From assembly GCA_024401295.1 (NCBI GenBank), contig JAKSLG010000004.1:1-64000 (forward strand): a DNA stretch of 64,000 nucleotides, written 5' to 3'. Source of the stretch: Bacteroidales bacterium (GTDB taxonomy: Bacteria; Bacteroidota; Bacteroidia; Bacteroidales; Marinilabiliaceae). How positions within the stretch are numbered: position 1 is the stretch's first letter; each line of letters opens with the position of its first letter. The notes below the pieces were generated by a model that searched no databases, had not been told where the DNA came from, and was given only the letters and a program-made list of their open reading frames with translations. The position numbers and the translations under genes were made by a program. Shown piece after piece: positions 40,173 through 57,249 of the stretch.

Positions 40173-40246
40173 CAAAGTTACGGTGCCTGGCAGTGCTGGG
40201 AAATCGCATATATGAGTCATATTGCATAGCATGAATGTGGTATATG
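40173..40246 (-). promoter_or_regulatory. SusD promoter with upstream block shared with SusC
   Basis: On the minus strand the -7 box is TAACTTTG (40173-40180), with ATTT 20 nt before it. The 46-bp stretch 40200-40246 matches the SusC upstream region at the same distance. Its end touches the first operator of the divergent ABC promoter at 40245. Confidence 0.7.
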
Positions 40247-40341
40247 TCAAAAATTTGGACAAAGTGGTGTCAAAAAATTATACAATCGGCGCCTGAGACC
40301 TATAAAAGTGTTGGAAAGAAATTGATGAAGAAATAATTTTG
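40245..40341 (+). promoter_or_regulatory. ABC operon promoter with paired TGTC-N9-GACA operators
   Basis: Operator 1 is TGTCAAAAATTTGGACA (40245-40261). Operator 2 is TGTCAAAAAATTATACA (40268-40284; last half-site one base off). They start 23 bp apart. Exactly 49 nt after operator 2 comes the -7 box TAATTTTG (40334-40341), with GTTG 20 nt before it. The same spacing occurs at the TolC and DUF2807 promoters. Confidence 0.8.
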
Positions 40342-40373
40342 AATTGTCAAAACAGAACAAAAACATATCAGTT

Positions 40374-41048
40374 ATGATAAAGATTGAAAATATCATCAAG
40401 GTTTTCCGCACGGAAGAGGTGGAAACGACAGCATTGAACGGCATTTGCTTCAATGTGGAACAGGGTGAATTCGTAGCCATCATGGGACCATCGGGCTGTG
40501 GCAAGTCAACATTGCTCAACATACTTGGTCTGCTCGACAATCCGACGCAGGGCAGCTACCAGCTCGACGGCAAAGAGGTAGGCAACCTCAAGGAGAGAGA
40601 GCGTACGGCGGTGCGCAAGGGCAATATTGGCTTTGTGTTCCAGAGCTTCAACCTCATCGACGAACTGAACGTTGAGGAGAATGTGGAATTGCCATTGAAA
40701 TATCTTGGTGTGCCATCTGGCGAGCGCAAGACACGCGTGGAGGACATCCTGAGAAAGATGAATATCTCGCACAGAGCAAAGCATTTCCCTCAGCAGCTCT
40801 CAGGCGGTCAGCAGCAGCGTGTTGCCATTGCACGAGCATTGGTGAGCAAACCGAAACTGATTCTTGCCGACGAGCCAACAGGTAACCTCGACTCGAAGAA
40901 TGGCCTCGAAGTTATGGAACTGCTCACACAGCTCAATCAGGAGGGCACGACAATCATCATGGTGACCCACTCGCAGAGAGATGCTGGTTATGCTACCCGA
41001 ATTGTGAATCTTCTCGATGGTGAAATTGTCAACAACGGAGTTCTCTAA
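40374..41048 (+). CDS. ABC transporter ATP-binding protein (MacB/LolD type)
   Basis: A 224-residue ATPase: Walker [11 protein letters not shown]-loop [13 protein letters not shown], signature [15 protein letters not shown], Walker [13 protein letters not shown], and switch His in VTHSQRD. This is the MacB/LolD/FtsE-type family that powers mechanotransmission exporters. The start is the ATG of MIKIENI; only a TTG lies further upstream. It is the first gene of an operon with two FtsX-like permeases. Its promoter carries the paired palindromic operators shared with the TolC-HlyD operon, so these genes probably form one efflux system. Confidence 0.95.
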
Positions 41049-41078
41049 TTCATCTTATCATTAAACATTAGAGTTGTT

Positions 41079-43466
41079 ATGGTTACGTTTTTCAGATTTC
41101 TCGCCAATCATCGTCTCTTCACGATGATAAACATATTGGGCTTCGCATTGTCGCTGGCCTTCCTCCTGTTGCTGGGCGACCTTGTCTATCGACAGTCGAC
41201 GGTCGAGAGTTTCCAGACACGAGGTGACCGGACTTACATCGTCGGCAACGAACACTTCCAGATGTCGAACTTCAGACAGGGCGAGCAACTGGCAGCAAAA
41301 TTTCCCGAGATAGAAGACTGGTGTGCGATAGGCGGATATGGAATGCCATTGCTGAAAGACGGAGTTGAAATAGAGACCAAGACACTCGTTGTGCGCGACA
41401 ATTACTTCAGCTTCTTTGACTATGGACTGCAGACGGGCGATAAATCGACGGTGCTGAGTGACATCAGCAACATCGTCGTGTCACGCAGTTTTGCAGATAA
41501 ATATTATGAGGATGAGGAAGTGATTGGCAAGCAGCTGGAGCTGGACGTCTATGGCGAGAAGCATGTCTTCACCATCAGCGGCATAATGGACGACTTCGAC
41601 CGTTCGGTCATTCCAAGCGAATACGAATGTGTCATTCCTCTCGAGAATCTCAAGTACATCCATTCATCGGCCTACAATGAGGACATGGGCAATGCGGGTG
41701 CGGTCATCACATATCTGATGGAGCGAGAAGGTTCCGACCTCAAGGCTCGCTGCAACGATATGGCCGACTATTTCCGCACCTATTTCTGGCTCTACAAGAA
41801 TGGAGTTGCCAAAGAGGTCTTGCTCACGCCATTGAGCGATTTCTACTATAACAACTATATGTGCGAACTCAATAGTGGCGAACTCAACCATGGCAACCGC
41901 TCGATAACATTTCTCTACATCATCATCGGAATCCTTGTGCTTGTGTTTGCCATTTTCAACTATGTCAACCTGAGCGTGACGCTGACCAGCGAGCGTTCCA
42001 AGGAAATGGCCACACGCCGTCTTCTGGGTTCACAAAAGAATGAGATTTTCCTGCGTCTCATGTCCGAGAGCATCATCTTCACGGCTATCTCATTCTTCAT
42101 TGGCATGATTGCCGCTCTCGCTCTTCAGGACAAGGCATCGATGCTTGTCAATTGCAAAATCGACCTTTTCAAGGATCTCGTCTGGTGGCATACCGCCATT
42201 GCTGCATTGGCAATCTGTTTTGTCGGCTTTCTTGCCGGCATGGCTCCTTCGTCTATTCTCTCCCAATACAAGCCCATCGACATCGTCCGCGGAACCTTTC
42301 GCCGCATCGTACGTCAGCGTTGGAGCCATGTGCTGATGATTATTCAGACCACCTTCACGCTCGTCATGCTTGCCACAGTGCTGATTCTCTCCGGCAGCAT
42401 TGAGGAGAAAATGAATACGCCGCTCGGTTATGAATATGAGAATATTGCCGAAGTCCAGGGACAGTTCGATTCTCTGGCTCAGATGAAGACCGCACGCGAT
42501 CAGATATTGGCTCTGCCCGAGGTTGAAAGCGTTGGCATGGGCTACAGCACACCGATGTCGTGGCTGGAAAACCAGACGATGAATGCTGATGACGGGACGG
42601 TGGTTTCTCTGCGCATAATGATGGGTGACTCGGCCATGTTTAACATTCTGAATATCCATCCATGTGAAGAGTTTGAGAAAGACGACCCGGGCAACGGTGT
42701 GGTTTGCGTCAACAAGTACCTTTACCAGCTGATGCACCTGCCCGATGATGCCCGCAGCTTCACCCTCCACAGCGGGGATTATGAAAGGACCTACACGGTA
42801 GGAGCGATATACCCGGACATAGTGTACCAGAGCGTGATATCGGGAGATGCAAAATCGCCATTCATATACTACAAGGTTGATGAATATGAAGATGGTGACA
42901 GGTTATTTAACGTGTACGGTATGCCACGAAACTATCTGGTTAAGTACAATCCGAATGCGACAACCATAGCTCAGCTCAACGAAAAGATGAAAAAGATTAT
43001 CAGCAGTGTCACCGGTCATGAAGGATTCGAATCCTCGTCTCTGTCCGATCAACACTATAACTGGTATGCAGAGTACGACCGTTTCCTGAAGGTGCTCAAG
43101 GTCTTCACCATTCTGGCATTCATCATAAGCATACTTGGCTTGCTGGCAATGAACAGCTACTTCATCTCGAACCGCAAGCGCGAGATTGCTGTGCGCAAGG
43201 TTCTTGGATCATCTACGATGGAAGTTATCGTGATGCTGATGCGCATAGTGATGATACAGTTTGCCGTTGCAGTGGCATTGAGCATCCCGTTGTCGATGTG
43301 GCTTTCGCCAATGGTGGCGTCGATGTCGGGCCTGACAATAGGAATGGAATGGGGTTCATTCGGCATTGCCACAATATCAATAGCCACAGTAATAATAATA
43401 ACAGTATTGGTGCAGTCGTTGCGCGCAGCAAGCGAAAATCCGATCAATAACATTAAAACAGAGTAA
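41079..43466 (+). CDS. ABC transporter permease, MacB/FtsX-like (first)
   Basis: A 795-residue permease. TM1 is near residues 14-34 (FTMINILGFALSLAFLLLLGDL), then a periplasmic core domain, and a bundle of membrane helices around residues 280-440 with the FtsX pattern (ERSKEMATRRLLGSQKNEIFLR). A second periplasmic region follows, then the final helices with SNRKREIAVRKVLGSSTMEVI and the end SENPINNIKTE. It has the eight-helix, duplicated layout of Bacteroidetes MacB-like exporters for antimicrobials or envelope lipids. Substrate is unknown. It starts 30 nt after the ATPase gene. Confidence 0.92.
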   Translation: MVTFFRFLANHRLFTMINILGFALSLAFLLLLGDLVYRQSTVESFQTRGDRTYIVGNEHFQMSNFRQGEQLAAKFPEIEDWCAIGGYGMPLLKDGVEIETKTLVVRDNYFSFFDYGLQTGDKSTVLSDISNIVVSRSFADKYYEDEEVIGKQLELDVYGEKHVFTISGIMDDFDRSVIPSEYECVIPLENLKYIHSSAYNEDMGNAGAVITYLMEREGSDLKARCNDMADYFRTYFWLYKNGVAKEVLLTPLSDFYYNNYMCELNSGELNHGNRSITFLYIIIGILVLVFAIFNYVNLSVTLTSERSKEMATRRLLGSQKNEIFLRLMSESIIFTAISFFIGMIAALALQDKASMLVNCKIDLFKDLVWWHTAIAALAICFVGFLAGMAPSSILSQYKPIDIVRGTFRRIVRQRWSHVLMIIQTTFTLVMLATVLILSGSIEEKMNTPLGYEYENIAEVQGQFDSLAQMKTARDQILALPEVESVGMGYSTPMSWLENQTMNADDGTVVSLRIMMGDSAMFNILNIHPCEEFEKDDPGNGVVCVNKYLYQLMHLPDDARSFTLHSGDYERTYTVGAIYPDIVYQSVISGDAKSPFIYYKVDEYEDGDRLFNVYGMPRNYLVKYNPNATTIAQLNEKMKKIISSVTGHEGFESSSLSDQHYNWYAEYDRFLKVLKVFTILAFIISILGLLAMNSYFISNRKREIAVRKVLGSSTMEVIVMLMRIVMIQFAVAVALSIPLSMWLSPMVASMSGLTIGMEWGSFGIATISIATVIIITVLVQSLRAASENPINNIKTE

Positions 43467-43470
43467 GAAA

Positions 43471-45837
43471 ATGAGAGCATTCATGTTTATATTCCGACGC
43501 TTCAGATTAGCGAGCATCCTGAACCTGCTAGGTCTGACGACAGCATTCGTGGCATACTATGTCTTTGCGACTCAGGTATCATTCAACTCGAACTACAACA
43601 AGAACCTGCATGACCATGAGCACCTGTACCGCCTGGAGACATACGGAAGTATGTTTGGCAACAACTGGGGTGCACACACGCCACGAATAATCGAAGGTCT
43701 GCTTAAAGATATCGCACATGTAGAAGACGTGATCGTGATAGGCGAAAACAGGTCGATACTGAAAACGAAAAAAGGAGAAAGCGAGATAACGATAGAGGCT
43801 GTATTCATCAACGGCAACGGCATCAAAGACCTGAACGACAAGGTAGTATCGGGGACGCTGGAGATGGAGACCACAGACCAGTGCGTGATACCGGCATCGA
43901 TGGCCGAGACATATTTCGGGACTGTTGACGCCGCTGGCATGAGCATAATGCTGAGCGACGGCGGAAAGATGGAAGTTGTTGGCGTATATGAGGACTTTGC
44001 GGAAAACTGCGTGATGGAAAACAGATGCTACAGAATGATTAGCCACGAGGGAAGCGACGACGTGACGAACTGGAACTTCAACTATTATTGCCATCTGAGC
44101 GGCAACGCAGATACTGAAGAGATTTGTGGCCTCATCAAGCAGAACCTGGTGAGCACCGTCATGGCTAAGTATGCAGATACCGAAATGGAGGTGTCGAAAG
44201 CCGAAACTGAGACCATCGACATGCTGAAATACAGGATGACACCGGTGAGCGAGACTTACTTCTCGGGAGTAGATGTCAGACTTGACAGAGGCAACAAAGG
44301 CTTGCACACGATCATGGAACTGGCTTGCATACTGGTGATAATCGTGGCAGGAATCAATTTTGTCAACTTCACCCTTGCCGAGACGCCGATGAGGATCAAG
44401 AGCATCAACACACGCAAAGTGCTGGGTTCGTCGACCGCCTCGCTCAGAATGTCGCTTATAGCAGAGAGCATAATGATAGCTTTGATTGCATTTGCAATAG
44501 CATCGATGATAATATATCCACTTTCACAGTGGCCAACCTTCATGCAGCTCGTAGTGGGCTCGATAGGCATCGGTGACAACATGACGATATGGCTCATGAC
44601 ACTGGCAATTGCGATTGTCGTAGGCATCGCATCTGGATTATATCCAGCATATTACGTAACTAGCTTTCCACCTGCATTGGCACTGAAGGGAACATTCGGA
44701 CTGTCGTCGGAGGGCAGAATGCTCAGAAAGATATTGATAGGAGTTCAGATGGTGGCAGCATTCACGATGGTGGTATATATCGCGATATTGTTTATGCAGA
44801 GTGACTACATATTCAATTCGGACTATGGATATGCAAAAGACGAGATAGTGTTTACGCGCATCAACGAGATGAACAGCGAACAGAGAGAGGCATTGCGCAG
44901 CGAGCTGTGTAACATGTCGGGAATCGTGGACGTGTCATACACGATGGATGCAGTCGGAGTGAACGACGAATATATGATATTCGGACGTGGAGATAGCGAA
45001 CATTCGGTATATATCAACGCCATGCCTGTGGACTGTCATTTCATAAACACATACGGCATAAAGATAATAGAAGGACGCGACTTCAACGAATATGACGGCG
45101 ATGTCTATATCATAAACAAAGCGACCAGACAGGCATGTGACTGGGTTGAGATAGGCAAGCCGCTGGTAGAGAATGACCTTGAAGTGGTCGGTGTGTGTGA
45201 AAACATAAGATTTGGATCGACACGTGTGGACAATGATAACAGAATGTGTGCATTCATGCTTTTCGGCGATAGATTCAAAGACTGGGTGTCGCCATATAAC
45301 GTAGCGAACATACGTGTGGGAGCCAACGTTGACAAGATAGAGATGATGAAACGCATCAAGGACAAGATAACAGAAGTGACAGGCGAAGTGCACACACACG
45401 AGATACAGTTCATAGACCAGAGGTTGCAGATAACGTATCAGGACGAGATCCGATTCATCAGGCAGGTGGAGATATTCTCGCTGATATGCCTCATCATCAC
45501 CATCGTCGGCATCTTCTGCCTCACGATGTTCGAGACGGAATACAGACGCAAGGAGATAGGCATACGCAAGGTGATGGGCAGCAGCGTGAAGGAAGTGCTC
45601 ATGCTGATATGCAGACAGTATGTGCCACTCGTTCTGACAAGCTTTGCCATAGCGGCGCCAATGGCCTACTACATGGGCAACAATTGGCTTCAGAACTTCT
45701 CGGAACACACGAAGATACACTGGTGGCTGTTTCCATTGTCGCTGACGATTGTAGCCGTGATAGTGATGGCAACCGTAGTGTCGCAGAGCTACAAGGCAGC
45801 CATTGAAAATCCGATAAACAGCATAAAGAGTGAGTAG
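43471..45837 (+). CDS. ABC transporter permease, MacB/FtsX-like (second)
   Basis: A 788-residue paralogue of the preceding permease, starting 4 nt after its stop. It has TM1 near LASILNLLGLTTAFVAYYVF, a periplasmic domain, the middle FtsX helices with RIKSINTRKVLGSSTASLRM, a second periplasmic domain and the C-terminal helices (MFETEYRRKEIGIRKVMGSS, end IENPINSIKSE). The pair probably forms a heterodimer driven by the upstream ATPase. A terminator follows at 45855-45888. The partner adaptor and TolC genes are 2.5 kb further on, on the opposite strand. Confidence 0.92.
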   Translation: MRAFMFIFRRFRLASILNLLGLTTAFVAYYVFATQVSFNSNYNKNLHDHEHLYRLETYGSMFGNNWGAHTPRIIEGLLKDIAHVEDVIVIGENRSILKTKKGESEITIEAVFINGNGIKDLNDKVVSGTLEMETTDQCVIPASMAETYFGTVDAAGMSIMLSDGGKMEVVGVYEDFAENCVMENRCYRMISHEGSDDVTNWNFNYYCHLSGNADTEEICGLIKQNLVSTVMAKYADTEMEVSKAETETIDMLKYRMTPVSETYFSGVDVRLDRGNKGLHTIMELACILVIIVAGINFVNFTLAETPMRIKSINTRKVLGSSTASLRMSLIAESIMIALIAFAIASMIIYPLSQWPTFMQLVVGSIGIGDNMTIWLMTLAIAIVVGIASGLYPAYYVTSFPPALALKGTFGLSSEGRMLRKILIGVQMVAAFTMVVYIAILFMQSDYIFNSDYGYAKDEIVFTRINEMNSEQREALRSELCNMSGIVDVSYTMDAVGVNDEYMIFGRGDSEHSVYINAMPVDCHFINTYGIKIIEGRDFNEYDGDVYIINKATRQACDWVEIGKPLVENDLEVVGVCENIRFGSTRVDNDNRMCAFMLFGDRFKDWVSPYNVANIRVGANVDKIEMMKRIKDKITEVTGEVHTHEIQFIDQRLQITYQDEIRFIRQVEIFSLICLIITIVGIFCLTMFETEYRRKEIGIRKVMGSSVKEVLMLICRQYVPLVLTSFAIAAPMAYYMGNNWLQNFSEHTKIHWWLFPLSLTIVAVIVMATVVSQSYKAAIENPINSIKSE

Positions 45838-45854
45838 TGAGCTGATAACAGAGG

Positions 45855-45888
45855 TGGCGTCGGGCGTTTTGCCTGGCGCCATTTCTTT
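45855..45888 (+). terminator. Terminator of the ABC operon
   Basis: A 10-bp stem GGCGTCGGGC/GCCTGGCGCC with two G-T pairs, a 5-nt loop and a short T-rich tail, 17 nt after the stop. Confidence 0.7.
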
Positions 45889-45991
45889 CATATGATGTTT
45901 TGCAAAAAATTGAGGCTTCCGTTCGTCATTTCAAATGGCACTTTCGTCAAAAAACTCATCATTTTCTGCATTCCTTACAAACCAATTTTGA

Positions 45992-45999
45992 TATATTTG
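45992..45999 (+). promoter_or_regulatory. -7 box of the leader upstream of the FISUMP gene
   Basis: TATATTTG matches TAnnTTTG exactly. The -33 region is weak. Transcription from here would give a roughly 200-nt leader to the ATG at 46207. The 369-nt gap between 45838 and 46206 otherwise holds two hairpins and a run of eight Gs (46086-46093). Confidence 0.55.
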
Positions 46000-46132
46000 C
46001 AAAGTACATCTGTACATATTCATGAACACCAACAATATCGAATAAGTCAATAATATGTATAAAACATTGATATACAATATTTTAGGGGGGGGTATTCCGC
46101 TCCGCTGAGTGTATGTATATCATATAATCATA

Positions 46133-46173
46133 GCCTTCTGAGGATGTGTATAGCATCTTCGGAAGGCTTTTCT
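46133..46173 (+). terminator. Hairpin terminator or attenuator in the FISUMP leader
   Basis: A stem of about 14 bp (AGCCTTC with GAAGGCT, continued by GATG/CATC with small mismatches) around a 7-nt loop, followed by a T-rich tail. It ends 33 nt before the ATG at 46207. It would stop most transcripts from 45992 unless bypassed. Confidence 0.7.
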
Positions 46174-46206
46174 CGTTTCAGAAATTATTAATTTAAATAT
46201 TTGTAT

Positions 46207-47136
46207 ATGAATAAATTATTTACTCTTTTATCTTCTGCACTCCTTGCCACAGGCGCATTGGCGCAGAACCTTGAGAATGGTCACGAATATGTTGACCTTG
46301 GACTCACAAGCGGCACGCTTTGGGCAACTTGCAACATCGGCGCAGATGCTCCAGAAAGCTACGGCGACTATTATCAGTGGGGCGAAGTGACTACCCACTA
46401 TTCAGCAGGCGGCAACACCGACAACCCAACATGGAAAGATGGCTATTCGGCTGGCTACAACTGGAGCACATACAAGTGGTGCAATGGTTCGTATAAAACG
46501 CTGACCAAATACGTTCCTCAGTCAAAGGCATCCGACTATGGCTATGAAGGTTTCTATGACGACAAGGTGACTCTCGAAAAGGCCGACGATGTGGCTTCAC
46601 AGACATGGGGTGGCAATTGGGTCGTACCTACACATGCCCAGCAGGAGGAACTCTACAACGAATGCTACTGGGTATGGACCAACGGCTATAATGGCACAAA
46701 CGTTCATGGCTACATCGTCTATAAGGCAAAAGACGCTAATGATAAGGGTACTATTATCTATGATGGCAATACTCCATCATCGTCTTACTCTTTATCTGAC
46801 GTCCATATTTTCCTCCCTGCCGCGGGCTACCGCTGGGATACAGATCTCGACGACGTGGGCTACAGCGGCTACTACTGGTCGAGTTCACTCTACGAGAGCT
46901 TCCCGTACAGCGCGTGGAATCTCTTCTTCTACTCGGGCAGCGTCAGCCCTTGGAACGGCTTCAGCCGTAAGTACGGGTTCTCGGTTCGCCCTGTCTGCAT
47001 TGTTGAAAAGACCCCTACAGCAGTTGAAAGCATCAACGCAGAGAATGGTGCAAAGACAATCAAGACCATCGAAAACGGCAAGGTTGTCATCATCAAGAAC
47101 GGCAAGAAATTCGACCTCTCAGGTCGCGAATTGTAA
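46207..47136 (+). CDS. Exported FISUMP-domain protein
   Basis: A 309-residue exported protein with a signal peptide (MNKLFTLLSSALLATGALAQ). The FISUMP/DUF1566 domain shows HEYVDLGLTSGTLWATCNIG, APESYGDYYQWGE, TWGGNWVVPTHAQQEELYN, IFLPAAGYRW, YWSSSLYES and FSVRPVCIVE. The short tail TIENGKVVIIKNGKKFDLSG resembles the end of Prevotella surface proteins. It interrupts the efflux region between the ABC operon and the TolC-HlyD genes and shares no operator with them. A related protein lies at 16872-17864. Function unknown; the ATG at 46207 starts the signal peptide. Confidence 0.83.
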   Translation: MNKLFTLLSSALLATGALAQNLENGHEYVDLGLTSGTLWATCNIGADAPESYGDYYQWGEVTTHYSAGGNTDNPTWKDGYSAGYNWSTYKWCNGSYKTLTKYVPQSKASDYGYEGFYDDKVTLEKADDVASQTWGGNWVVPTHAQQEELYNECYWVWTNGYNGTNVHGYIVYKAKDANDKGTIIYDGNTPSSSYSLSDVHIFLPAAGYRWDTDLDDVGYSGYYWSSSLYESFPYSAWNLFFYSGSVSPWNGFSRKYGFSVRPVCIVEKTPTAVESINAENGAKTIKTIENGKVVIIKNGKKFDLSGREL

Positions 47137-47144
47137 TACACTCG

Positions 47145-47170
47145 TAGAGACGTGGCATGCCGCGTCTCTA
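47145..47170. repeat. 26-bp palindrome of the GAGACG type
   Basis: TAGAGACG is followed by GGCATGCC and CGTCTCTA. The whole is a palindrome apart from one position and lies 9 nt after the FISUMP stop. Its arms share GAGACG with the two terminators at 34703-34734 and 47184-47214. Confidence 0.85.
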
Positions 47171-47183
47171 ACAGAAACATAAA

Positions 47184-47214
47184 GAGACGTTGCCAATCGG
47201 CATCGTCTCTTTTT
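47184..47214 (+). terminator. Terminator after the FISUMP gene
   Basis: GAGACG/CGTCTC arms extended by TGCC/GGCA, a 4-nt loop and a run of Ts. It lies between convergent genes. The arms nearly equal those at 34703-34734. Confidence 0.85.
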
Positions 47215-47277
47215 CATTGCCCCACGTGCATCCGTAGAGACAGTGTTAAACGGGAAAGATGTTGCGCCAAGAGGGAA

Positions 47278-48207
47278 TCAAAGATTGAAAAACGACTCGA
47301 TCTGCTTGGCGTATTCGTCGGGATAGACAGAATAAGACTGTACGTGTTCCGCGCCTTTCGTAATCCAAAGTTGCTTGCGTCCCTGTGTTTTCGCATCGAA
47401 AAGCCATTGCGCATTGCAAACTCTGACGCGGTTGTCGATGTCGCCATGCACGATGAGGACAGGCATAGTGCTCTTGCCGATGGCTTTCAGAGGTGAGACC
47501 TGCTTGTAGGACCATCCGAGTATCAGCTTATTCAAGAAGCTGGCAACATAGAGGAAAGGGAAGTGAGGCACGTGGCGCTTGTGAAGTTCCCATCCGAAGA
47601 CTTCCCAGACGGAATGATAAGCACTGTCGGAGATGGCTCCTGCAATGTGCTGCTGATAGTCGCTGTTTCCGGCAACGAGGAGCGTTGTTGCTCCGCCCAT
47701 CGAGATGCCGTGGAGATATATTTTTGTTTTTGGGAACATCTGGCGAGCCGTTTCAATCCACTGTGCCAGTATTTTCTGTTCGACATATCCCATGCTTGTG
47801 CATTTGCCTTCACTCTGTCCGTGGTTTGGCAGGTCGTGGACAATGACATTGCAATGGAATTTCTCGAGCCACATTTTTGCGTATGGCATCATCTGCATTG
47901 CGCAACTAGAATAGCCATGCGTGAGGATAACCGTTGCCGTTGCGTCCGGACATTCGGCATAATAGGCATGAATGCGCAGTCTCTGCTCGGAGATGATAAA
48001 TATGCCTTTGAACGTTCCATCGGCACGTTTCTGTTCAACCCATTGCTTGATGCCGGGATGCATCTTTTCCGTGACCTGACTGAGGAAAGCCCATTCGTCT
48101 TTGCCCAGAGGCTTATGAAAAACGGATGTTTTCAAATACCATAATCCAAGAATCAAAGGCAAAAGGATAATTATGGCTACGATTGTTACTATGGCGTATG
48201 TCATCAT
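47278..48207 (-). CDS. Membrane-anchored alpha/beta hydrolase
   Basis: A 309-residue serine hydrolase with one N-terminal membrane helix (residues 5-25). The fold shows VILTHGYSSCAMQM (oxyanion region), the nucleophile in LHGISMGGAT, the acid in HGDIDNRV and the histidine in KGAEHVQSYS. This is the DUF-type S33/BAAT-like hydrolase group common in Firmicutes and Bacteroidetes; substrate unknown. The active site faces either side depending on topology, which cannot be settled here. It is convergent with the FISUMP gene, has its own -7 box at 48228-48235, and lies just downstream of the HlyD gene on the same strand. Confidence 0.88.
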   Translation of the reverse strand: MMTYAIVTIVAIIILLPLILGLWYLKTSVFHKPLGKDEWAFLSQVTEKMHPGIKQWVEQKRADGTFKGIFIISEQRLRIHAYYAECPDATATVILTHGYSSCAMQMMPYAKMWLEKFHCNVIVHDLPNHGQSEGKCTSMGYVEQKILAQWIETARQMFPKTKIYLHGISMGGATTLLVAGNSDYQQHIAGAISDSAYHSVWEVFGWELHKRHVPHFPFLYVASFLNKLILGWSYKQVSPLKAIGKSTMPVLIVHGDIDNRVRVCNAQWLFDAKTQGRKQLWITKGAEHVQSYSVYPDEYAKQIESFFNL

Positions 48208-48227
48208 TTCTGCTCACTTTTATATCA

Positions 48228-48235
48228 CAAAAATA
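48228..48235 (-). promoter_or_regulatory. -7 box for the alpha/beta hydrolase gene
   Basis: On the minus strand TATTTTTG, a TAnnTTTG match, 20 nt before the ATG. No clear -33 box. The HlyD gene ends at 48321, so read-through is also possible. Confidence 0.5.
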
Positions 48236-48320
48236 GGTATTTATACGTAACCTTATTCGGTAAGTCGGAGATATTTCATTGAGATGTCATTAATGATTAT
48301 CAAATATGACATAAAAGCTA

Positions 48321-49571
48321 CTATTTCAATATGAGGATGTCCGTCTCCTTGAATGCCTCATATCCGCTAGTTATGACATTCTCGCCCTCTTCGAGTCCTT
48401 CCGTGACTTCATAGTAGAGTGGATTCTGGCGGCTGATGCGAATGTTGCGTTTGTAGGCTTGCGAGCCATCATGATTGAGGACGAAAATCCAGTTGCCGCC
48501 AGTTGTCTGGAAGAAGGCTCCGCGAGGGATGACAACGGATTGCGTCGGGCTTCCGAGTTCGAGGTTGACGTAGTAAGTCTGTCCGCTTCGGATGTTTTCC
48601 GGCCTTTCTCCAACGAAGATGAAATCTGTGCGGAATTTGCCGTTGCGCACCTCAGGATAGACCTTGCGAATGGCTAGTTCAAAGACACGTCCGTTGCGCT
48701 CAAATGACGCTGTCAGTCCCTGACGAACGCGGTCGATGTAGTGTTCATCAATAAGCGCTTCGACCATGTAGCTGCTGAGATCATTGATCTGTCCGATCAT
48801 CTGTCCAGCGCTGATGCTCTGTCCGAGCGTGACATCGAGGAGACCAAGCTCTCCATCAATGGCGCTACGAACCTCTAATTTGTCCTTTCTGCCGCGCACC
48901 ATGATAACATTGCGCTGCATGTTGATGAGGTTGTCTTCCATCTGTTCCATCTGGACAGAACGATAGATACTATCCTGTGTAAGTCGTTGTCCGACAAGTG
49001 AATACTTGCGGCTTGCAAGCAGATAATCTTCGCGGCTCTGAAGATAATCCTCGCGACTGATGAGTCCCTCTTCAAAGAGCCGGCTGTTTTGCTGATAAAA
49101 ACGCTTTTTACGCTGCGTGTCGACGTCAAGCGAAGCCTGCTCGGTCTCGTTGTTGAGTTTGTCCTGCTGCATGGCAACCTGAGTGTTGCGCAGAAGGTTT
49201 TGCTTCTCGGCAAGTTCAGCCTCAGCCTGCAGAATCTGAAGGTCGAGATTCGAATTTGACAATCGTACAATGACGTCGCCTTTCTTGACCTGCGAACCCT
49301 CTTCGATGCATCGCTCAACAACGATGCCACCCTCTTCCGGCGAAATCTGAACAACCTGAATCGGAATGACCTGCGCATTCAGACGGATGTAGTCCTTGAA
49401 CTCCTTGATGCAGACCTGATTGATGGTAACTGTCTGGCGGTCAACGCGCTGGCTCTGACTATGATCGCCAAAAACAAGCCACAAAACGAAAACGACAACG
49501 ATTGCCGATGCTATGATGTATGGCAAATATTTCTTTGTTTTGCCCGACTTTTTTTCAATTACTCTATCCAT
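48321..49571 (-). CDS. HlyD-family periplasmic adaptor subunit
   Basis: A 416-residue membrane fusion protein. One N-terminal membrane helix (YIIASAIVVVFVLWLVFG) is followed by a barrel-sandwich half (ISPEEGGIVVERCIEEGSQVKKGDVIVRLSN), a long alpha hairpin (about residues 115-225) and the second lipoyl half (VRSAIDGELGLLDVTLGQSISAGQMIGQI). The beta-barrel and membrane-proximal domains follow (SVVIPRGAFFQTTGGNWIFVL, GLEEGENVITSGYEAFKETD). It bridges the inner-membrane exporter and TolC. Its start overlaps the TolC-like gene by 13 nt. The likely pump partner is the ABC operon at 40374-45837. Confidence 0.93.
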   Translation of the reverse strand: MDRVIEKKSGKTKKYLPYIIASAIVVVFVLWLVFGDHSQSQRVDRQTVTINQVCIKEFKDYIRLNAQVIPIQVVQISPEEGGIVVERCIEEGSQVKKGDVIVRLSNSNLDLQILQAEAELAEKQNLLRNTQVAMQQDKLNNETEQASLDVDTQRKKRFYQQNSRLFEEGLISREDYLQSREDYLLASRKYSLVGQRLTQDSIYRSVQMEQMEDNLINMQRNVIMVRGRKDKLEVRSAIDGELGLLDVTLGQSISAGQMIGQINDLSSYMVEALIDEHYIDRVRQGLTASFERNGRVFELAIRKVYPEVRNGKFRTDFIFVGERPENIRSGQTYYVNLELGSPTQSVVIPRGAFFQTTGGNWIFVLNHDGSQAYKRNIRISRQNPLYYEVTEGLEEGENVITSGYEAFKETDILILK

Positions 49572-50860
49572 AGTTTTTCTCCTTTATAATAAGCTGATAA
49601 TCTGTTTTTTATCATAAACATTAATTTACTCTGAAGCAAAGTTGCACGGCTCGAAGCAAGTTTTGCGGCACTTGCCTGAAGATCAATCGGGTTGCATAAA
49701 CCCTCTTCATATTTGCGTTTGATGAGCACGTGGGCAAGGCTGTCTGCATCGACCGTTTTCTGCATTTGCTCAACCTGCTGACGAAAGGCATTGCAATCGG
49801 CATCGGCCTGAATCGACATCTTCCTAAGTTCGTTGCAACGCTGCCTATATTGCTCATCTGCAATACGATAGTCGTTGCGAGTACGACGGATGCTGGCAAT
49901 ATTTCCAAGCCTATTGAAGATAGGAATGCTGACAGACGCGCCGATGTATTCGCCGACATTATTGCGCATCTGCCGGGCAAAACCGATATTGTCTGCTCCA
50001 TCCATCGAGCGGAAATACATGGTGTTGATGCCTGCTTCGACCGATATCCTTGGGCAGAAAGCCGAACGTGCAGCCTTCATGTTTTGCCGTGCCTGTTCGC
50101 GTGCATAGCGCGACTCTTCGAGGTTCACATTGGCAATGTCAAAATCGCCACTCGAAAGCATAATATCTTGAACATCAATGTTATAATCAGCAATATCAAG
50201 GCTGTCATCAAGTGGAAAGTTCATCTCCAGCTTGAGTTCCATCATTGCCGTTTCAAGTTTGTTTCTGTTGAGCATAAGCTCATATTCGTTGCTTGCCAGC
50301 TGTGCCTGCATCTGAATGACATCGGCATAGCTTTTCTGGCCGATTTCGTGCAAGGTCTGAGTCTTCTTGAGCAGAGTCTCACTCTCGGCACGTCGTGCAT
50401 CGGCCATTGCAACCATCTCGCGATAGAAAAGGACATCGGCAAATGACTGCATCGCGTTGAGTGCGGCATTATCCTGTGCCTTGTGCATGGCATTTCGGCC
50501 CATGAGAACGGCGGCCTTGGCTGCCGAAATTTCGTGGATGCGACGCATGCCGTCAAAAACCGTGAGTGCTGCTGACAGCTGATAACCGCTATTGAATGTG
50601 TTGACGTTGGTGTATGTGTTTGTCTCCGGGTCAATGGCGCGGCCAAAATTGCATTGCGCACCGACATATCCATCTATCGAAGGCAGCATCTGCCCAATTG
50701 CATACATCTTATTGTTTTCATAACTATTTAATTCAATGCGACTTTGCTCGACTTTGCTATTATGCGTTGCTGCATATTGCATGCAATCATCGAGCGACAT
50801 CTGAGCCGACGCAGCAATGGTCGAAAATGCGACTGAAAATATTACTGAATGAATTTTCAT
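49559..50860 (-). CDS. TolC-family outer membrane efflux protein
   Basis: A 433-residue outer membrane channel subunit with a signal peptide (MKIHSVIFSVAFSTIAASAQ). It has the duplicated coiled-coil pattern of TolC: MSLDDCMQYAATHNSKVEQSRIEL at the start, ALNAMQSFADVLFYREMV in the first half, and EYIGASVSIPIFNRLGNIASIRRTRNDYRIAD in the second. The ATG of the signal peptide is used; the longer frame overlaps the promoter. It is the first gene of the TolC-HlyD operon, whose -7 box TACTTTTG lies 49 nt from the proximal palindromic operator. Confidence 0.93.
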   Translation of the reverse strand: MKIHSVIFSVAFSTIAASAQMSLDDCMQYAATHNSKVEQSRIELNSYENNKMYAIGQMLPSIDGYVGAQCNFGRAIDPETNTYTNVNTFNSGYQLSAALTVFDGMRRIHEISAAKAAVLMGRNAMHKAQDNAALNAMQSFADVLFYREMVAMADARRAESETLLKKTQTLHEIGQKSYADVIQMQAQLASNEYELMLNRNKLETAMMELKLEMNFPLDDSLDIADYNIDVQDIMLSSGDFDIANVNLEESRYAREQARQNMKAARSAFCPRISVEAGINTMYFRSMDGADNIGFARQMRNNVGEYIGASVSIPIFNRLGNIASIRRTRNDYRIADEQYRQRCNELRKMSIQADADCNAFRQQVEQMQKTVDADSLAHVLIKRKYEEGLCNPIDLQASAAKLASSRATLLQSKLMFMIKNRLSAYYKGEKLWIE

Positions 50861-50887
50861 GTTTCTCGTGCAATTGATTTCTGTGAG

Positions 50888-50984
50888 CAAAAGTATGTGC
50901 ATTTTCTGCTCGACATATCACTAAAAACGTCACAAACAGATGCTTGTCTAATTATTTGACAACAAAGTGTCCAATTTTTTGACA
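50888..50984 (-). promoter_or_regulatory. TolC-HlyD promoter with paired TGTC-N9-GACA operators
   Basis: Operators TGTCTAATTATTTGACA (50945-50961) and TGTCCAATTTTTTGACA (50968-50984) start 23 bp apart. On the minus strand the -7 box TACTTTTG lies at 50888-50895, exactly 49 nt from the nearer operator, as at the ABC and DUF2807 promoters. There is no good -33 box, consistent with dependence on an activator. Confidence 0.82.
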
Positions 50985-51030
50985 TTAGGAGTCAATGGCT
51001 TTCAATCATCGCTGAAATGGCTTATATTCG
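50945..51030 (+). promoter_or_regulatory. Response regulator promoter sharing the paired operators
   Basis: The same two operators face the response regulator gene. On this side a poorer -7 box, TATATTCG (51023-51030), is followed by GCATCAT-like sequence as at 52551. It lies 38 nt from the nearer operator, 11 nt or one helical turn less than the 49 nt at the other promoters. Autoregulation is possible. Confidence 0.5.
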
Positions 51031-51055
51031 CATCATCTAAACAAAACAAACGAAT

Positions 51056-51577
51056 ATGAAATACGGTAACATTTTGGCTATCGACGACAATAACGCCATA
51101 TTGACTGCCCTCAAACTGTGTTTGGGCGATACTTTTCAAGACATCATAACCCTGTCGCAACCAGATGACATCCTGACAATAATGGCACAGGAAGAGATTG
51201 AAGCGGTCATTCTCGACATGAATTTCTCGCTTGGCATCAACACCGGTCATGACGGTATTTTCTGGCTTCAGGCCATCAAAAAACACCATCCAAACGTGCC
51301 GGTCATTCTCCTCACTGCCTATGCCGATGTGCAACTGGCCGTCAAAGGACTCAAAAATGGAGCCGCAGATTTTGTCACAAAACCTTGGGACAACGACGAA
51401 TTGCTTCGCAAAATCAAGGATGCCATCGACAAAAGTCGCAGCCTGGCGCCACTCAGCGAAGTTGAGGCCGACCACGTGCAACGTGCCATTGACAGCTGCC
51501 ACGGCAATCTTTCGAAAGCGGCCGACATGCTCGGAGTATCGCGACAGACACTATATAATAAGATGAAAACAAAATAA
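51056..51577 (+). CDS. Response regulator with receiver and Fis-type HTH, no AAA+ domain
   Basis: A 173-residue regulator. The receiver has acidic residues at 10-11, phospho-acceptor Asp54 in VILDMNFS, a Thr in LLTAYAD and Lys109 in FVTKPWDN. A short linker leads to a Fis-type HTH (SCHGNLSKAADMLGVSRQ-LYNKM) at about 137-173. Both ends resemble NtrC-family regulators of Bacteroidetes efflux loci, but the roughly 240-residue sigma54-activating AAA+ domain is missing. It could be a natural RegA/ActR-like form or a deletion. It lies 3 nt before the kinase gene and is the best candidate to bind the TGTC-N9-GACA operators. Confidence 0.88.
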   Translation: MKYGNILAIDDNNAILTALKLCLGDTFQDIITLSQPDDILTIMAQEEIEAVILDMNFSLGINTGHDGIFWLQAIKKHHPNVPVILLTAYADVQLAVKGLKNGAADFVTKPWDNDELLRKIKDAIDKSRSLAPLSEVEADHVQRAIDSCHGNLSKAADMLGVSRQTLYNKMKTK

Positions 51578-51580
51578 GCC

Positions 51581-52459
51581 ATGCTGCTTCACATTGCCAT
51601 TCTCATCGCTGTTGTCATAGTCGCTCTGCTCATCTTCCATCTGCGCCATCAGCGACTTCTGAAACAAAGAGCATATCTGATGCGCGAAGCCTTGCAGAAC
51701 CGCGACTTCTCGTTTCACCTCCCAACCAACGGACTGTTCAGCGGAGAGCGGGCATTGCAACAAACACTCAACGAACTGGGCGAACTCATCAAGCAACAAG
51801 CAGACAGAGCCGAAGTCGAGTCGTGGCATCGAATGACGCGCATTCTCACTCATGAAATCATGAATGCCGCCGCACCTATCGCCAGCATAAGCCAAAGCCT
51901 GACCAAACGACGCGACGACTTCAACAATCAGACATCATACGATGCCATCGTGACAATCAACGATACAGCTGCCGAACTTATCCGATTCGTTCAGAAGTAT
52001 CGCGAGATTCTCAAGGAAAACAAGATACAGACAGTCGGACAACCGAAAGCTACAACGGCCATCGCGCCACTCGTGAATGCCATCGCACCGTTGTTTCCGC
52101 AAGTCAGCATCAACACTTTCCTGGAACCGGAAAACATAAACATGAACATCGATGCAGACCTGCTCCGACACGTAATCGTCAACATCATAAAGAATGCCGC
52201 TGAAGCAAAAGCCACGATAATAAAAATATCCGCTCTCGAAAACAATAATCATATTACGCTGAAAATCAGCAATAACGGCGAACAGATTCCTGCAACTATT
52301 GCTGCCGACATCTTTACGCCATTCTTCACCACAAAGCAAACAGGTACCGGCATCGGACTTTCACTATGCCGACAGATAATTGTCAACAGCGGCGGCACAA
52401 TCCGACTTCTCGACAAATCCGAACACAATTTCACAACCACATTCGAAGTAAAAATCTGA
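51581..52459 (+). CDS. Sensor histidine kinase
   Basis: A 292-residue kinase. One N-terminal membrane helix (about residues 2-19) is followed by a short helical linker, the dimerisation/phosphoacceptor helix with His91 in ILTHEIMNAAAPI, and a HATPase domain: N box NIIKNAAEA (201-209), F box FTPFFTTKQ, and G box GTGIGLSLCRQI. There is no periplasmic sensor or PAS domain, so it is compact compared with the usual 400-450 residues. It probably senses through the membrane helix or a partner. It starts 3 nt after the response regulator gene and forms the two-component pair of the efflux region. Confidence 0.92.
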   Translation: MLLHIAILIAVVIVALLIFHLRHQRLLKQRAYLMREALQNRDFSFHLPTNGLFSGERALQQTLNELGELIKQQADRAEVESWHRMTRILTHEIMNAAAPIASISQSLTKRRDDFNNQTSYDAIVTINDTAAELIRFVQKYREILKENKIQTVGQPKATTAIAPLVNAIAPLFPQVSINTFLEPENINMNIDADLLRHVIVNIIKNAAEAKATIIKISALENNNHITLKISNNGEQIPATIAADIFTPFFTTKQTGTGIGLSLCRQIIVNSGGTIRLLDKSEHNFTTTFEVKI

Positions 52460-52461
52460 CG

Positions 52462-52558
52462 TGTCAAATTTTTTGACAGAGTTATGTCAAGTTTTTTGAC
52501 AAACGCATCTTCTGGCCAGAATTGCTGAACGCATAATGTGCATTTGTGAATACTTTTG
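52462..52558 (+). promoter_or_regulatory. DUF2807 gene promoter with paired TGTC-N9-GACA operators
   Basis: TGTCAAATTTTTTGACA (52462-52478) and TGTCAAGTTTTTTGACA (52485-52501) are perfect in both half-sites and start 23 bp apart. The -7 box TACTTTTG (52551-52558) follows after 49 nt. The first operator begins 2 nt after the kinase stop codon. No good -33 box is present. Confidence 0.85.
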
Positions 52559-52577
52559 CATCATAAAAATTAAGAAC

Positions 52578-53312
52578 ATGAAAAGAATAATCACAACCGC
52601 AGTTTCCGCATTCATTGCGATTCTGACATTGACATTGCAAGGCTGCATAATGTCACAGACACTTCCAAAAATGGACTATTCAGCCCATTATGATGTAAAT
52701 TCTTTCGAGGCCATCAACATTGGCGGCGCTTTTGAAATCAGATTTGTTGAATCAGATTCAAACTATGTCAATATTGTCTCCGATGTTGACCTGACCGATA
52801 TTCTGTATGTCGGCGTCGAACAAAATACGCTCAATATCCATCCTAAAAAGGACTATAGAGGCAACGACGAAGATATTGTCGTAACAATCGGCGCTCATAC
52901 GCTTTCGGCTATTTCGCTCTCTGGTGCAAATAAGCTGACAGAATGTTATATCGAAAACGACAAGAATGTAAAAATATCGCTCAGCGGAGCATCAACTATC
53001 TTAGCTTCAATCACTTGCAACAGTCTCGAAATTGTAGGCAATGGCGCAACTGATATCAGAGGAACATTCAACTCCAGGACAAATGCCGATTTCATATTCA
53101 GCGGCGCATCAAAAGCCAACATGGAGGTCAATGCGGATGACATCACGCTCAGATGCAGCGGTGCTGTGACCTGCAACGCAACGGTCAACGCCAACAGACT
53201 GACATCAAACAGTAATGGCGCCTGCACCATGACATTGCGCGGACAATGCACGGAATCGAGCATCAACAGCTCCGGAGCTTGCACCATTCACACGGAAGAA
53301 CTGAAAAGATAA
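52578..53312 (+). CDS. DUF2807 (GIN domain) lipoprotein
   Basis: A 244-residue lipoprotein with signal MKRIITTAVSAFIAILTLTL and lipobox LQGC. It is a right-handed beta-helix-like DUF2807 domain: FEAINIGGAFEIRFVES at the start, then repeated LSGANKL, LSGASTI, FSGASKAN, CSGAVTC, NSNGACT and NSSGACT turns about 20 residues apart. The domain is annotated as a putative autotransporter adhesin head and is frequent in Bacteroidetes envelopes; its function is unknown. The promoter carries the same paired operators as the efflux operons, so it is probably induced with them. ATG 52578 starts the signal peptide. Confidence 0.88.
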   Translation: MKRIITTAVSAFIAILTLTLQGCIMSQTLPKMDYSAHYDVNSFEAINIGGAFEIRFVESDSNYVNIVSDVDLTDILYVGVEQNTLNIHPKKDYRGNDEDIVVTIGAHTLSAISLSGANKLTECYIENDKNVKISLSGASTILASITCNSLEIVGNGATDIRGTFNSRTNADFIFSGASKANMEVNADDITLRCSGAVTCNATVNANRLTSNSNGACTMTLRGQCTESSINSSGACTIHTEELKR

Positions 53313-55275: not shown

Positions 55276-56913
55276 CTATTTCTTCTCTAACATGTAATCT
55301 GTCACTGAAAAATATTCAACATTGCAATATTTGCCCGTGAATGCCTTATCGGTCGAAACACCATAGCGCACCGTAGCGCCTTTTGGGACAATGATATCAT
55401 CAATTGTGAGCTTCACCCAACCATGAGGAAGATTATTGATTTCGAGCATATTTCCATATCCCGGAATCTCCTGAAGATAAAGCACCGGTTCGCTTCCTTC
55501 TGCTACAACCTGAACATATCCAAAGGCACCTTCTCCACCTTCTGAAGCACGTCCATAGAACGAAAGAGTGTATGTGCCAGGCTCGACATTCTCCGTTTGC
55601 TCTGCCTGGAAAATGAGATTTCTGTTATATGAATACGCATCAACATAACGCACACTTGGATCGCCATCATAATATTCACCACTATATGTATAGCGCTCAT
55701 CTGTGAGATTCTCTGCCTTCAGGAGCTTCCAGCCGTTCTTCTGATAGAAATCCCACTCCTCATCACTGAAGACATAACCTTCGTGAGTGTGGTCTATACG
55801 ATACTTTGTCTCGTATTCTTTATAATGACTCAAATATATATCTCTTACACTTATTACTGAGAAAATAATAAGACCAATTAACATAGGAATGCATACAAAC
55901 CATGACATCACCTGAAGACCGCTCATCGACTGATGCTTTCTAAAACCACGTGTGACAACATGCAAACAGCAGTAAATAAGAGAAATCAGTAGCGCAAAAA
56001 CAGATATCCAGAATATTACAAAATACCATTTAGATTCTACGAACGCTACACGAGAATAGTCACCAAAATCTTCATTTACTATTACTCCAAAAATCCGCAT
56101 AACTGTTTCACTATCATAGTTTTTGACAAAGACAACGAACAAACCGATTGCAAAGAAAAGGGCTACTACATAAACAATACCCATAACTCCAGAGAACAAA
56201 CGGAAGAGCGCACTGAACAACCTGTGAAAAAATCCCTCTGTCTTAATCTCAGGCAACCTGTTTATTTCTGAAGCAATGTTCTGAGGATTAACTTCTTCTC
56301 CTCGCATTTTCAGACGATCTTCAGGTTCGATAGCCTTTGGCATGATAAGCGCACATAATATGTAGATTGCTATAGGTGTAAAATTGAAGAAACCAACAGA
56401 GAATAACATAGGAATGAATAAATGATAATTTACCACTCCTCCACATATAGATATCAATAGTGGCGCAAACAAAATAGCAGTCATTACTACTCTCCAAACA
56501 TGAAGACTGCCTCCAAAATATCTTGAGAAACCCGAAAGCACACCACAAATCACACTATTCTCAATGTCACGATAAAGTCCCTTGCGTGGATGCTTGCTAT
56601 CGGTCGAACTGGTTCCTTCGTGCTGCGAACCACTTCTATCCTGCTCCTCGCCAGGAGCAAGTTCATCAAGATTTCCCAATTGGTCAATTACCAATTTTGT
56701 CATTTCAATCGTAACCGCATTCTGACCCGATGCAATCTGTTCATCTAAAAGTTCAGCAATGCGCATCTCGATATCATCGGCAACCTCTTCTGTTCCTTCC
56801 TTCTTGTAAAAGCGACGAAGAGTCTCTGTGTAATGCATAAGCATCTCGTATGCATCCTCGTCTATATTATACAGACGTCCACAAAAATTTATGGTTATGT
56901 TCTTCTTAATCAT
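55276..56913 (-). CDS. PspC domain membrane protein
   Basis: A 545-residue protein. Residues 1-80 form a small helical domain (FCGRLYNIDEDAYEMLMHYTETL) found at the start of Bacteroidetes PspC proteins. The PspC domain follows: LYRDIENSVICGVLSGFSRYFGG and FTPIAIYILCALIMP, with two or three helices. Further membrane helices lie at about 245-365, and the last 160 residues form an extracytoplasmic beta-rich domain (YTLSFYGRASEGGEGAFGYVQV). It is co-transcribed with a PadR regulator (15 nt upstream) and a small PspC protein. Envelope-stress sensing is a reasonable guess. Confidence 0.87.
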   Translation of the reverse strand: MIKKNITINFCGRLYNIDEDAYEMLMHYTETLRRFYKKEGTEEVADDIEMRIAELLDEQIASGQNAVTIEMTKLVIDQLGNLDELAPGEEQDRSGSQHEGTSSTDSKHPRKGLYRDIENSVICGVLSGFSRYFGGSLHVWRVVMTAILFAPLLISICGGVVNYHLFIPMLFSVGFFNFTPIAIYILCALIMPKAIEPEDRLKMRGEEVNPQNIASEINRLPEIKTEGFFHRLFSALFRLFSGVMGIVYVVALFFAIGLFVVFVKNYDSETVMRIFGVIVNEDFGDYSRVAFVESKWYFVIFWISVFALLISLIYCCLHVVTRGFRKHQSMSGLQVMSWFVCIPMLIGLIIFSVISVRDIYLSHYKEYETKYRIDHTHEGYVFSDEEWDFYQKNGWKLLKAENLTDERYTYSGEYYDGDPSVRYVDAYSYNRNLIFQAEQTENVEPGTYTLSFYGRASEGGEGAFGYVQVVAEGSEPVLYLQEIPGYGNMLEINNLPHGWVKLTIDDIIVPKGATVRYGVSTDKAFTGKYCNVEYFSVTDYMLEKK

Positions 56914-56928
56914 CGTTATCAGGTTTTA

Positions 56929-57249
56929 TCAACGTAGCTTGTTTACTGCATTCTCAATCTCATTCCATGCTTCCTCCAATGCCGAAAGCATCTCTCTGCC
57001 CTCGTCCGAAAGCACGTAATACTTTCTCGGCGGACCTTGCGTGCTTTCCTGCCATTCATACGAAAGGACACCATCATTCTTCAATCTTGTAAGAAGCGGA
57101 TATAACGTCCCTTCAACAACAAGCAGGTTTGCTTCCTTCAGTCTCTTGATAATGTCAGATGAGTAACATGGATTGTCTTTTAGCAATAGCATAATGCAAT
57201 ATTCAAGCATTCCCTTTCTCATCTGAGATTTTGCATTATCTACATTCAT
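56929..57249 (-). CDS. PadR-family transcriptional regulator
   Basis: A 106-residue winged-helix repressor: MRKGMLEYCIMLLLKDNPCYSSDII at the start, VVEGTLYPLLTRLKNDGVLSYEW as recognition helix and wing, and GPPRKYYVLSDEG, which is the PadR hallmark. A short C-terminal helix ends it, as in the small-subunit PadR group. In Bacteroidetes these genes usually precede a PspC-domain gene, as here with 15 nt between. It probably represses its own operon in response to an envelope signal. Confidence 0.93.
   Translation of the reverse strand: MNVDNAKSQMRKGMLEYCIMLLLKDNPCYSSDIIKRLKEANLLVVEGTLYPLLTRLKNDGVLSYEWQESTQGPPRKYYVLSDEGREMLSALEEAWNEIENAVNKLR

Follow-up and report, generated by a model that had tools for sequence, protein, structure and literature searches.

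Three pairs of palindromes of the form TGTC-N9-GACA lie beside the genes of an ABC exporter in a 64,000-nucleotide stretch of Bacteroidales DNA (hereafter the window, meaning the whole stretch analyzed), and the locus raises the question of which protein would recognize these pairs and from which kind of promoter it would control the neighbouring genes. A first-pass annotation had proposed that the pairs, each made of two sites offset by 23 bp, define an efflux-envelope regulon, most simply under the local Fis-type response regulator.

Operator pairs, promoters and genes of the exporter region

All six palindromes were found where the annotation had placed them, in three pairs with a 23-bp offset, and five of the six are perfect, the exception being the site at 40268 (one mismatch). 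Its claim that the nearer site stands exactly 49 nt from a TAnnTTTG box at the ABC exporter, tolC and DUF2807 promoters was borne out when checked on the sequence. TAnnTTTG is the -7 box of Bacteroidota sigma-A, and it is present at these three window promoters. As had been described, the parts of the pump lie in two operons on opposite strands 2.5 kb apart, the ABC operon ending at 45837 and the hlyD gene at 48321. The features of the region are the following.

40245..40284, plus strand: operator pair 1 (sites 40245-40261 and 40268-40284), upstream of the ABC exporter operon
40334..40341, plus strand: putative -7 box TAATTTTG, 49 nt from pair 1, ABC promoter
40374..45837, plus strand: ABC exporter operon, ATPase and two FtsX/MacB_PCD permeases (Pfam families)
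48321..50866, minus strand: HlyD-type adaptor and TolC-type outer membrane channel (Pfam families; start of the channel gene approximate)
50888..50895, minus strand: putative -7 box TACTTTTG, 49 nt from pair 2, tolC-hlyD promoter
50945..50984, no strand assigned: operator pair 2 (sites 50945-50961 and 50968-50984), between tolC and the regulator gene
51023..51030, plus strand: poor -7-like box TATATTCG, regulator side, 38 nt from pair 2, not conserved
51056..51577, plus strand: short response regulator, receiver and Fis-type HTH, 173 aa (PF00072, PF02954)
51581..52459, plus strand: histidine kinase, 292 aa (HATPase_c only in Pfam)
52462..52501, plus strand: operator pair 3 (sites 52462-52478 and 52485-52501), upstream of the DUF2807 gene
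52551..52558, plus strand: putative -7 box TACTTTTG, 49 nt from pair 3, DUF2807 promoter
52578..53312, plus strand: DUF2807 envelope protein (Pfam family)

The start of the channel gene is approximate because the -7 box falls inside the longest ORF. As in MacAB-TolC-like tripartite ABC exporters, all the parts are present, namely FtsX/MacB_PCD permeases, an ABC ATPase, an HlyD-type adaptor and an OEP channel; unlike in those exporters, the ATPase and permeases of the window are separate genes and the parts are split over two operons. We weighed a susD-like gene on the left of pair 1 as a further target but excluded it, its TAACTTTG being more than 49 nt from the pair. PspC-like and PadR-like genes, read by eye, are found near the DUF2807 gene (window 55276-57249, minus strand).

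Single sites with at most one mismatch number 58 in the window against 29.3 ± 4.8 in shuffled sequences (0 of 100 shuffles as high), and a further perfect palindrome at 36706 is unpaired and lies within an ORF. The signal is the pair; single sites are not the signal. A genome-wide search for pairs with the 23-bp offset, which the annotation had suggested as a check, found no others in the assembly of the window (2,296,801 bases, 75% complete): at one mismatch or fewer, pairs occur at the three window places only and the reversed pattern nowhere, and at two mismatches one extra place appears (C38:77745), again with a reversed control of 0. Among 71 genomes of the family searched at one mismatch or fewer, the pair was found in three (the window's own genome, G063 and G043) and the reversed pattern in one (G003). 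The counterpart of pair 1 in G063 lies at the orthologous ATPase gene (L037:14892/14915).

The short regulator and its kinase

The 173-aa regulator matches PF00072 at 3.2e-20 and PF02954 at 4.4e-14 (receiver and HTH_8). Pfam detected no sigma-54 interaction AAA+ domain (PF00158) in it, and it therefore lacks the central domain by which NtrC-type sigma-54 activators are recognized. The genome of the window also encodes sigma-54 and other regulators of full length. Short orthologs were found in three of the 14 other genomes of the genus (G063, 76% identity; G065, 62%; G066, 61%), and the other strong matches in the 61 genomes searched were mostly in open frames of about 450 aa. The kinases of the short systems are 289-300 aa long with no sensor domain in Pfam, and those of three full-length systems measure 438-448 aa, one of them with a PAS domain; L046, with a full-length regulator and a 291-aa kinase, is an exception to this size difference. 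The kinases compared include those at window 51581-52459, L182:7391-8713, L184:11688-13001 and L046:6540-7415, those of the short systems being about 150 aa shorter than the three of full-length systems.

A second family of regulators without AAA+ domain, 199 aa long, was observed in other genomes of the genus (L042:2948-3544, L043:9222-9818, L044:1293-1889 and L045:7992-8588). Single TGTC-N9-GACA sites lie near these regulators; the one at L043:9133 has TATATTTG 60 nt off in both directions, and the single sites of L042 and at L045:308 have no such box at 60 nt.

Linkage of the pairs to the regulator family

We then considered 295 Bacteroidales genomes (120 family codes), 21 of which hold a pair at one mismatch or fewer, the reversed control occurring in one (G367). 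These pairs fall at 29 places. A gene of this regulator family lies no more than 500 bp away at 17 of them and no more than 25 kb away at 26. The annotation had named the local Fis-type regulator as the simplest bound protein, and with this linkage it is the best candidate for that protein. The genes at the 17 closest places encode 15 full-length REC-AAA+-HTH regulators and two short ones. Three places are unlinked: one in G340 (C1:4712961), near a permease gene, and those in G269 and G305, which look like chance pairs. Operator-like pairs were seen at L040:9409-9448 (G043) and L171:9962 (G340) with no regulator of this family found in the surrounding stretch; the latter stands beside a permease gene and is followed by TGGCAC at 54 nt. 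Full-length close relatives were found in 152 of the 295 genomes (at most five candidates scored per genome) and short forms in three (at most 12 candidates scored per genome), G376 having both.

Conservation of the spacing and of the promoter box in short-regulator loci

To collect relatives, genome contigs were scanned with an alignment of four short regulators. The best 80 of the 548 relatives, 60-76% identical, come mostly from Prevotella-like and other Bacteroidales bins. At one mismatch or fewer, 21 of these best 80 loci (1,264,523 bases) contain a pair with offset 23; offsets 33 and 44 were each seen once in them, no further offset between 10 and 60 was seen, and two control motifs at offset 23 gave none. 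A degenerate pattern built from the sites of these same loci detects an offset-23 pair in 42, 57 and 63 of 79 loci at no more than one, two and three mismatches respectively, the reversed control giving 0, 0 and 1; 22 of the 79 have no recognisable pair at two mismatches or fewer. (L047 represents the same locus as L037 and does not enter the 79-locus, promoter-alignment and oriented-pair counts.) In G065 and G066, which the strict pattern misses, degenerate pairs with the 23-bp offset are present. Offset 21 was also found, in 10 of the 79 short loci at two mismatches and in 32 at three, so that 23 is not the sole spacing and a 21-bp variant may be in use in short systems. In the relatives the pair stands mostly between tolC and the regulator gene, and also upstream of permease, ATPase and hlyD genes.

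We aligned on the operator those promoters in which a pair at two mismatches or fewer has, no more than 200 nt away, a gene on the same strand coding for 150 aa or more, a selection that retained a few chance-looking pairs, for example in L106. In the 54 promoters of genes other than the regulator's, T (91%) and A (89%) are conserved at positions 50-51, followed by TTTG at 81-89%. The annotation had judged the -33 boxes weak, which needs qualifying: the -33 region is not entirely without signal, since a TT, weaker than the box, recurs at 67-69% some 20 nt ahead of it in these 54 promoters and may represent a -33 element. Immediately 3' of the nearer site, ATCTGC is seen in Prevotella-type promoters (e.g. 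L097 and L099), each base at 69-83% in the 54 promoters.

When all oriented pairs were counted, coding pairs included and near-symmetrical pairs once per direction, TAnnTTYG stands at exactly 49 nt in 75 of 166, drawn from 51 loci (of the 79 loci, L037 and the window), or in 57 once spacers that are 80% or more alike are collapsed into one. The second commonest position is 9 nt (n=22). With directions pooled, the boxes fall at 8-9 nt (27), 37-38 nt (4), 48 nt (5), 49 nt (75), 50 nt (5) and 60-61 nt (6). The 33 regulator-side promoters carry the box mostly at the short distance of 8-9 nt (T 67%, A 76%), and the operator therefore overlaps the -33 region there. The annotation had also noted a fourth, regulator-side promoter with a box at 38 nt, one helical turn less: TATATTCG is indeed present, and the geometry is not conserved. 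We dropped the 38-nt rule for the regulator promoter, the box being at 8-9 nt in about two thirds of the 33.

Pairs at one mismatch or fewer occur in 13 of the 16 genomes reached through these loci, at nine places in G108 and six in G107, with a control of 0 throughout. In 20 stretches from those genomes, a set that overlaps with the best 80 of 548 loci, 28 of 30 pairs facing non-regulator genes have a box that matches in 5 or more of 6 letters at 49 nt. Loci encoding the regulator thus retain the pair together with the 23-bp spacing and the box at 49 nt. Two outcomes that the annotation had named as speaking against it, many unlinked pairs across the genome and absence of the sites from close relatives, were not seen. 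The genes downstream of pairs in G108 encode a C10 protease, a BspA-type protein with dockerin, another dockerin-bearing protein and an M16 protease, and the regulon may have grown in this genome. The pairs with a 49-nt box before those genes are in L148, L149, L152 and L153.

Full-length relatives and sigma-54 promoters

The main point that goes beyond the first-pass annotation concerns the sigma-54 relatives of the regulator. The full-length regulator of L182, for instance, matches PF00158 at 9.1e-67. In a mixed set of 46 full-length loci, chosen partly via pair hits and partly via protein hits, 11 of 12 pairs (three mismatches or fewer) have TGGYA, the sigma-54 -24 element, 52-55 nt on in place of TAnnTTTG at 49 nt, and for pairs with the 23-bp offset it starts 53 or 54 nt past the operator in 9 of 11.

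A set of 70 full-length loci was then chosen by protein similarity, so that the pair would weigh less in the selection: the 30 best protein hits and 40 picked by hand from further down that list, passing over loci already collected and certain additional copies in a genome; five of its genomes (G340, G149, G127, G270 and G123) were previously known to hold a pair. In this set pairs with offset 21-23 occur in 12, 22 and 40 loci at no more than two, three and four mismatches, and TGGYA is in register (53-57 or 63-65 nt) in 12 of 12, 21 of 22 and 30 of 40. Three sets of control offsets gave 0-1, 1-3 and 10-14 pairs at the same thresholds, with 2-4 of the last in register. At two mismatches or fewer, offsets 21, 22 and 23 occur in three, five and five loci, other offsets from 17 to 46 in at most one, and four control motifs in at most one. 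No clear pair is seen at three mismatches or fewer in 48 of the 70 loci, and another full-length set has an offset 21-23 pair in 10 of 35 loci and none in 25. Three close full-length relatives have an offset of 21, with TGGCA or TGGCAT beginning at exactly 55 nt, and some other full-length loci have TGGYA at 55 or 64-65 nt. Sigma-54 promoters at the pairs of short-regulator loci were discounted, a TGGYA -24 element being in register in just 2 of 166 oriented pairs.

Proposed history of the promoter change

A first tree, built on receiver and HTH columns with its root left open, contains 28 short rows, four of the 199-aa type and 36 of the 70 full-length rows, and in it the 28 short rows form one clade (99/96). 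A second tree contains 10 short rows, four of the 199-aa type, 49 full-length rows and, as outgroup, two distant regulators from the window's own genome. When rooted, it places the short rows inside the full-length ones across the starred branch (96/99), with the 199-aa type standing beside the short clade. The outgroup rows, both very long, do not come together, one of them joining the 199-aa type; the direction therefore also rests on parsimony, as 152 of the 295 genomes have full-length close relatives. The likeliest course of events is that the ATPase domain of a sigma-54 activator was lost, its operator was kept, and the regulon moved to sigma-A promoters, a direction that we infer from the sequences. 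The ancestor would have been one of the sigma-54-dependent REC-AAA+-HTH_8 regulators controlling the same kind of exporter from the same operator and a -24/-12 promoter; the lineage would then have lost the AAA+ domain and retained the operator while its promoters turned sigma-A. By the known mechanism, a regulator without AAA+ domain cannot open sigma-54 promoters, and so a joint loss of this domain and of the -24 element is coherent. As regards the older state, PMC12316311 describes predicted sigma-54 promoters as enriched upstream of FtsX-type permeases in Bacteroidia.

The reverse history, an old short form from which full-length regulators gained the AAA+ domain and sigma-54 promoters, is quite unlikely. 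It draws on the open root of the first tree and on the very distant outgroup of the second, but the rooted tree puts the short rows inside the full-length ones, and short forms were found in three genomes against 152 with full-length ones (some candidates per genome scored). For the switch of sigma factor itself, we also considered a change in place, in which the ancestral -24 element became the -7 box. With TGGCA at 54 nt and TAnnTTTGCA at 49 nt, the GCA of the one coincides exactly with the GCA of TTTGCA, and if this were true one substitution and a TA upstream would convert the element and the fixed 49-nt gap would be explained. TTTGC is the ordinary -7 consensus, so the register of GCA may be a coincidence, and other full-length loci place TGGYA at 55 or 64-65 nt; we put the idea forward as doubtful.

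Proposed mechanism and alternative explanations

The explanation that we favour, and consider probable, is that the pairs are the operator of the local regulator, which activates sigma-A promoters and descends from sigma-54 activators. The neighbouring kinase would phosphorylate the short regulator, two dimers of which would occupy the two 17-bp palindromes, and the bound regulator would help sigma-A RNA polymerase to the -7 box 49 nt away; both halves of the MacAB-TolC-like exporter and the envelope protein would thus be switched on together. For Flavobacterium, PMC9723704 gives TAnnTTTG at -12 to -5. Judged from the position of the box, the site centres would then lie near -70 and -93, a class-I-like arrangement. 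This region is a usual place for an activator that recruits polymerase, and class I activation involves contact with the alpha C-terminal domain from an upstream site. The operator, its geometry and conservation, its linkage to the regulator family, the absence of the AAA+ domain and the promoter type of each group are established as far as sequence comparison goes; from them we infer binding, and activation rather than repression, and the signal and substrate of the system are likewise presumptive.

A regulator that binds the pairs and represses, with phosphorylation releasing it, would fit the regulator side, where about two thirds of the 33 promoters have the box 8-9 nt from the operator and the overlap with the -33 region suits autorepression. 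On the target side, however, the operator stands upstream of the -33 region, stopping 49 nt short of the -7 box, and relatives keep precisely this spacing; moreover the same operator stands in register with sigma-54 promoters in the full-length relatives, and such promoters need an activator. Repression is unlikely. That another DNA-binding protein and not the neighbouring response regulator binds the pairs appears very unlikely: the site of the regulator is a prediction and a few pairs have no regulator nearby, yet the pairs track the regulator family through changes in gene content, with 17 of 29 places within 500 bp (15 full-length, 2 short). As for chance palindromes in AT-rich promoters, single one-mismatch sites are common in the window (58), but the pairs are unique in the assembly with a control of zero and their spacing and box distance are conserved, and we rejected this explanation as having almost no probability.

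Relation to known systems and significance

Among the closest known systems are the NtrC-type sigma-54 regulators (REC-AAA+-HTH_8) of Bacteroidales exporter loci, which share with the window regulator a related receiver and HTH, the same operator with a 21-23 bp offset, and TolC, HlyD and FtsX-type ABC neighbours. The window regulator differs in having no AAA+ domain, and window-type promoters have a -7 box at 49 nt where the NtrC-type exporter promoters have a -24 element at 53-57 or 63-65 nt. Despite the missing domain, the window regulator still belongs with them in descent and operator. PrrA, RegA and ActR of proteobacteria also consist of a receiver and a Fis-type HTH without AAA+ domain and act at ordinary promoters. 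The window regulator resembles them by domain plan, as REC and Fis HTH without AAA+; they belong to the proteobacterial phylum and have another operator and other targets.

No description of the operator or the regulon was found in the titles and abstract openings of the open-licence literature, and the operator motif strings gave no match in that literature. The same titles and abstract openings revealed no regulon whose promoters change sigma class with the operator geometry preserved. PMC10434189 matched in words only and was set aside as a related paper.

For a whole regulon to change sigma factor, the regulator must change in step with every promoter that it serves, and it is not easy to imagine how this happens. 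A single bacterial order seems to harbour both states here, and since the operator has been retained as a landmark, the switch can be dissected one promoter at a time. The operator pair, the 49 nt and TAnnTTTG also make up a motif with which exporter and envelope regulons of Prevotella-type bacteria from gut and rumen can be predicted, and in G108 this motif points to further candidate targets among secreted protease and surface-protein genes.
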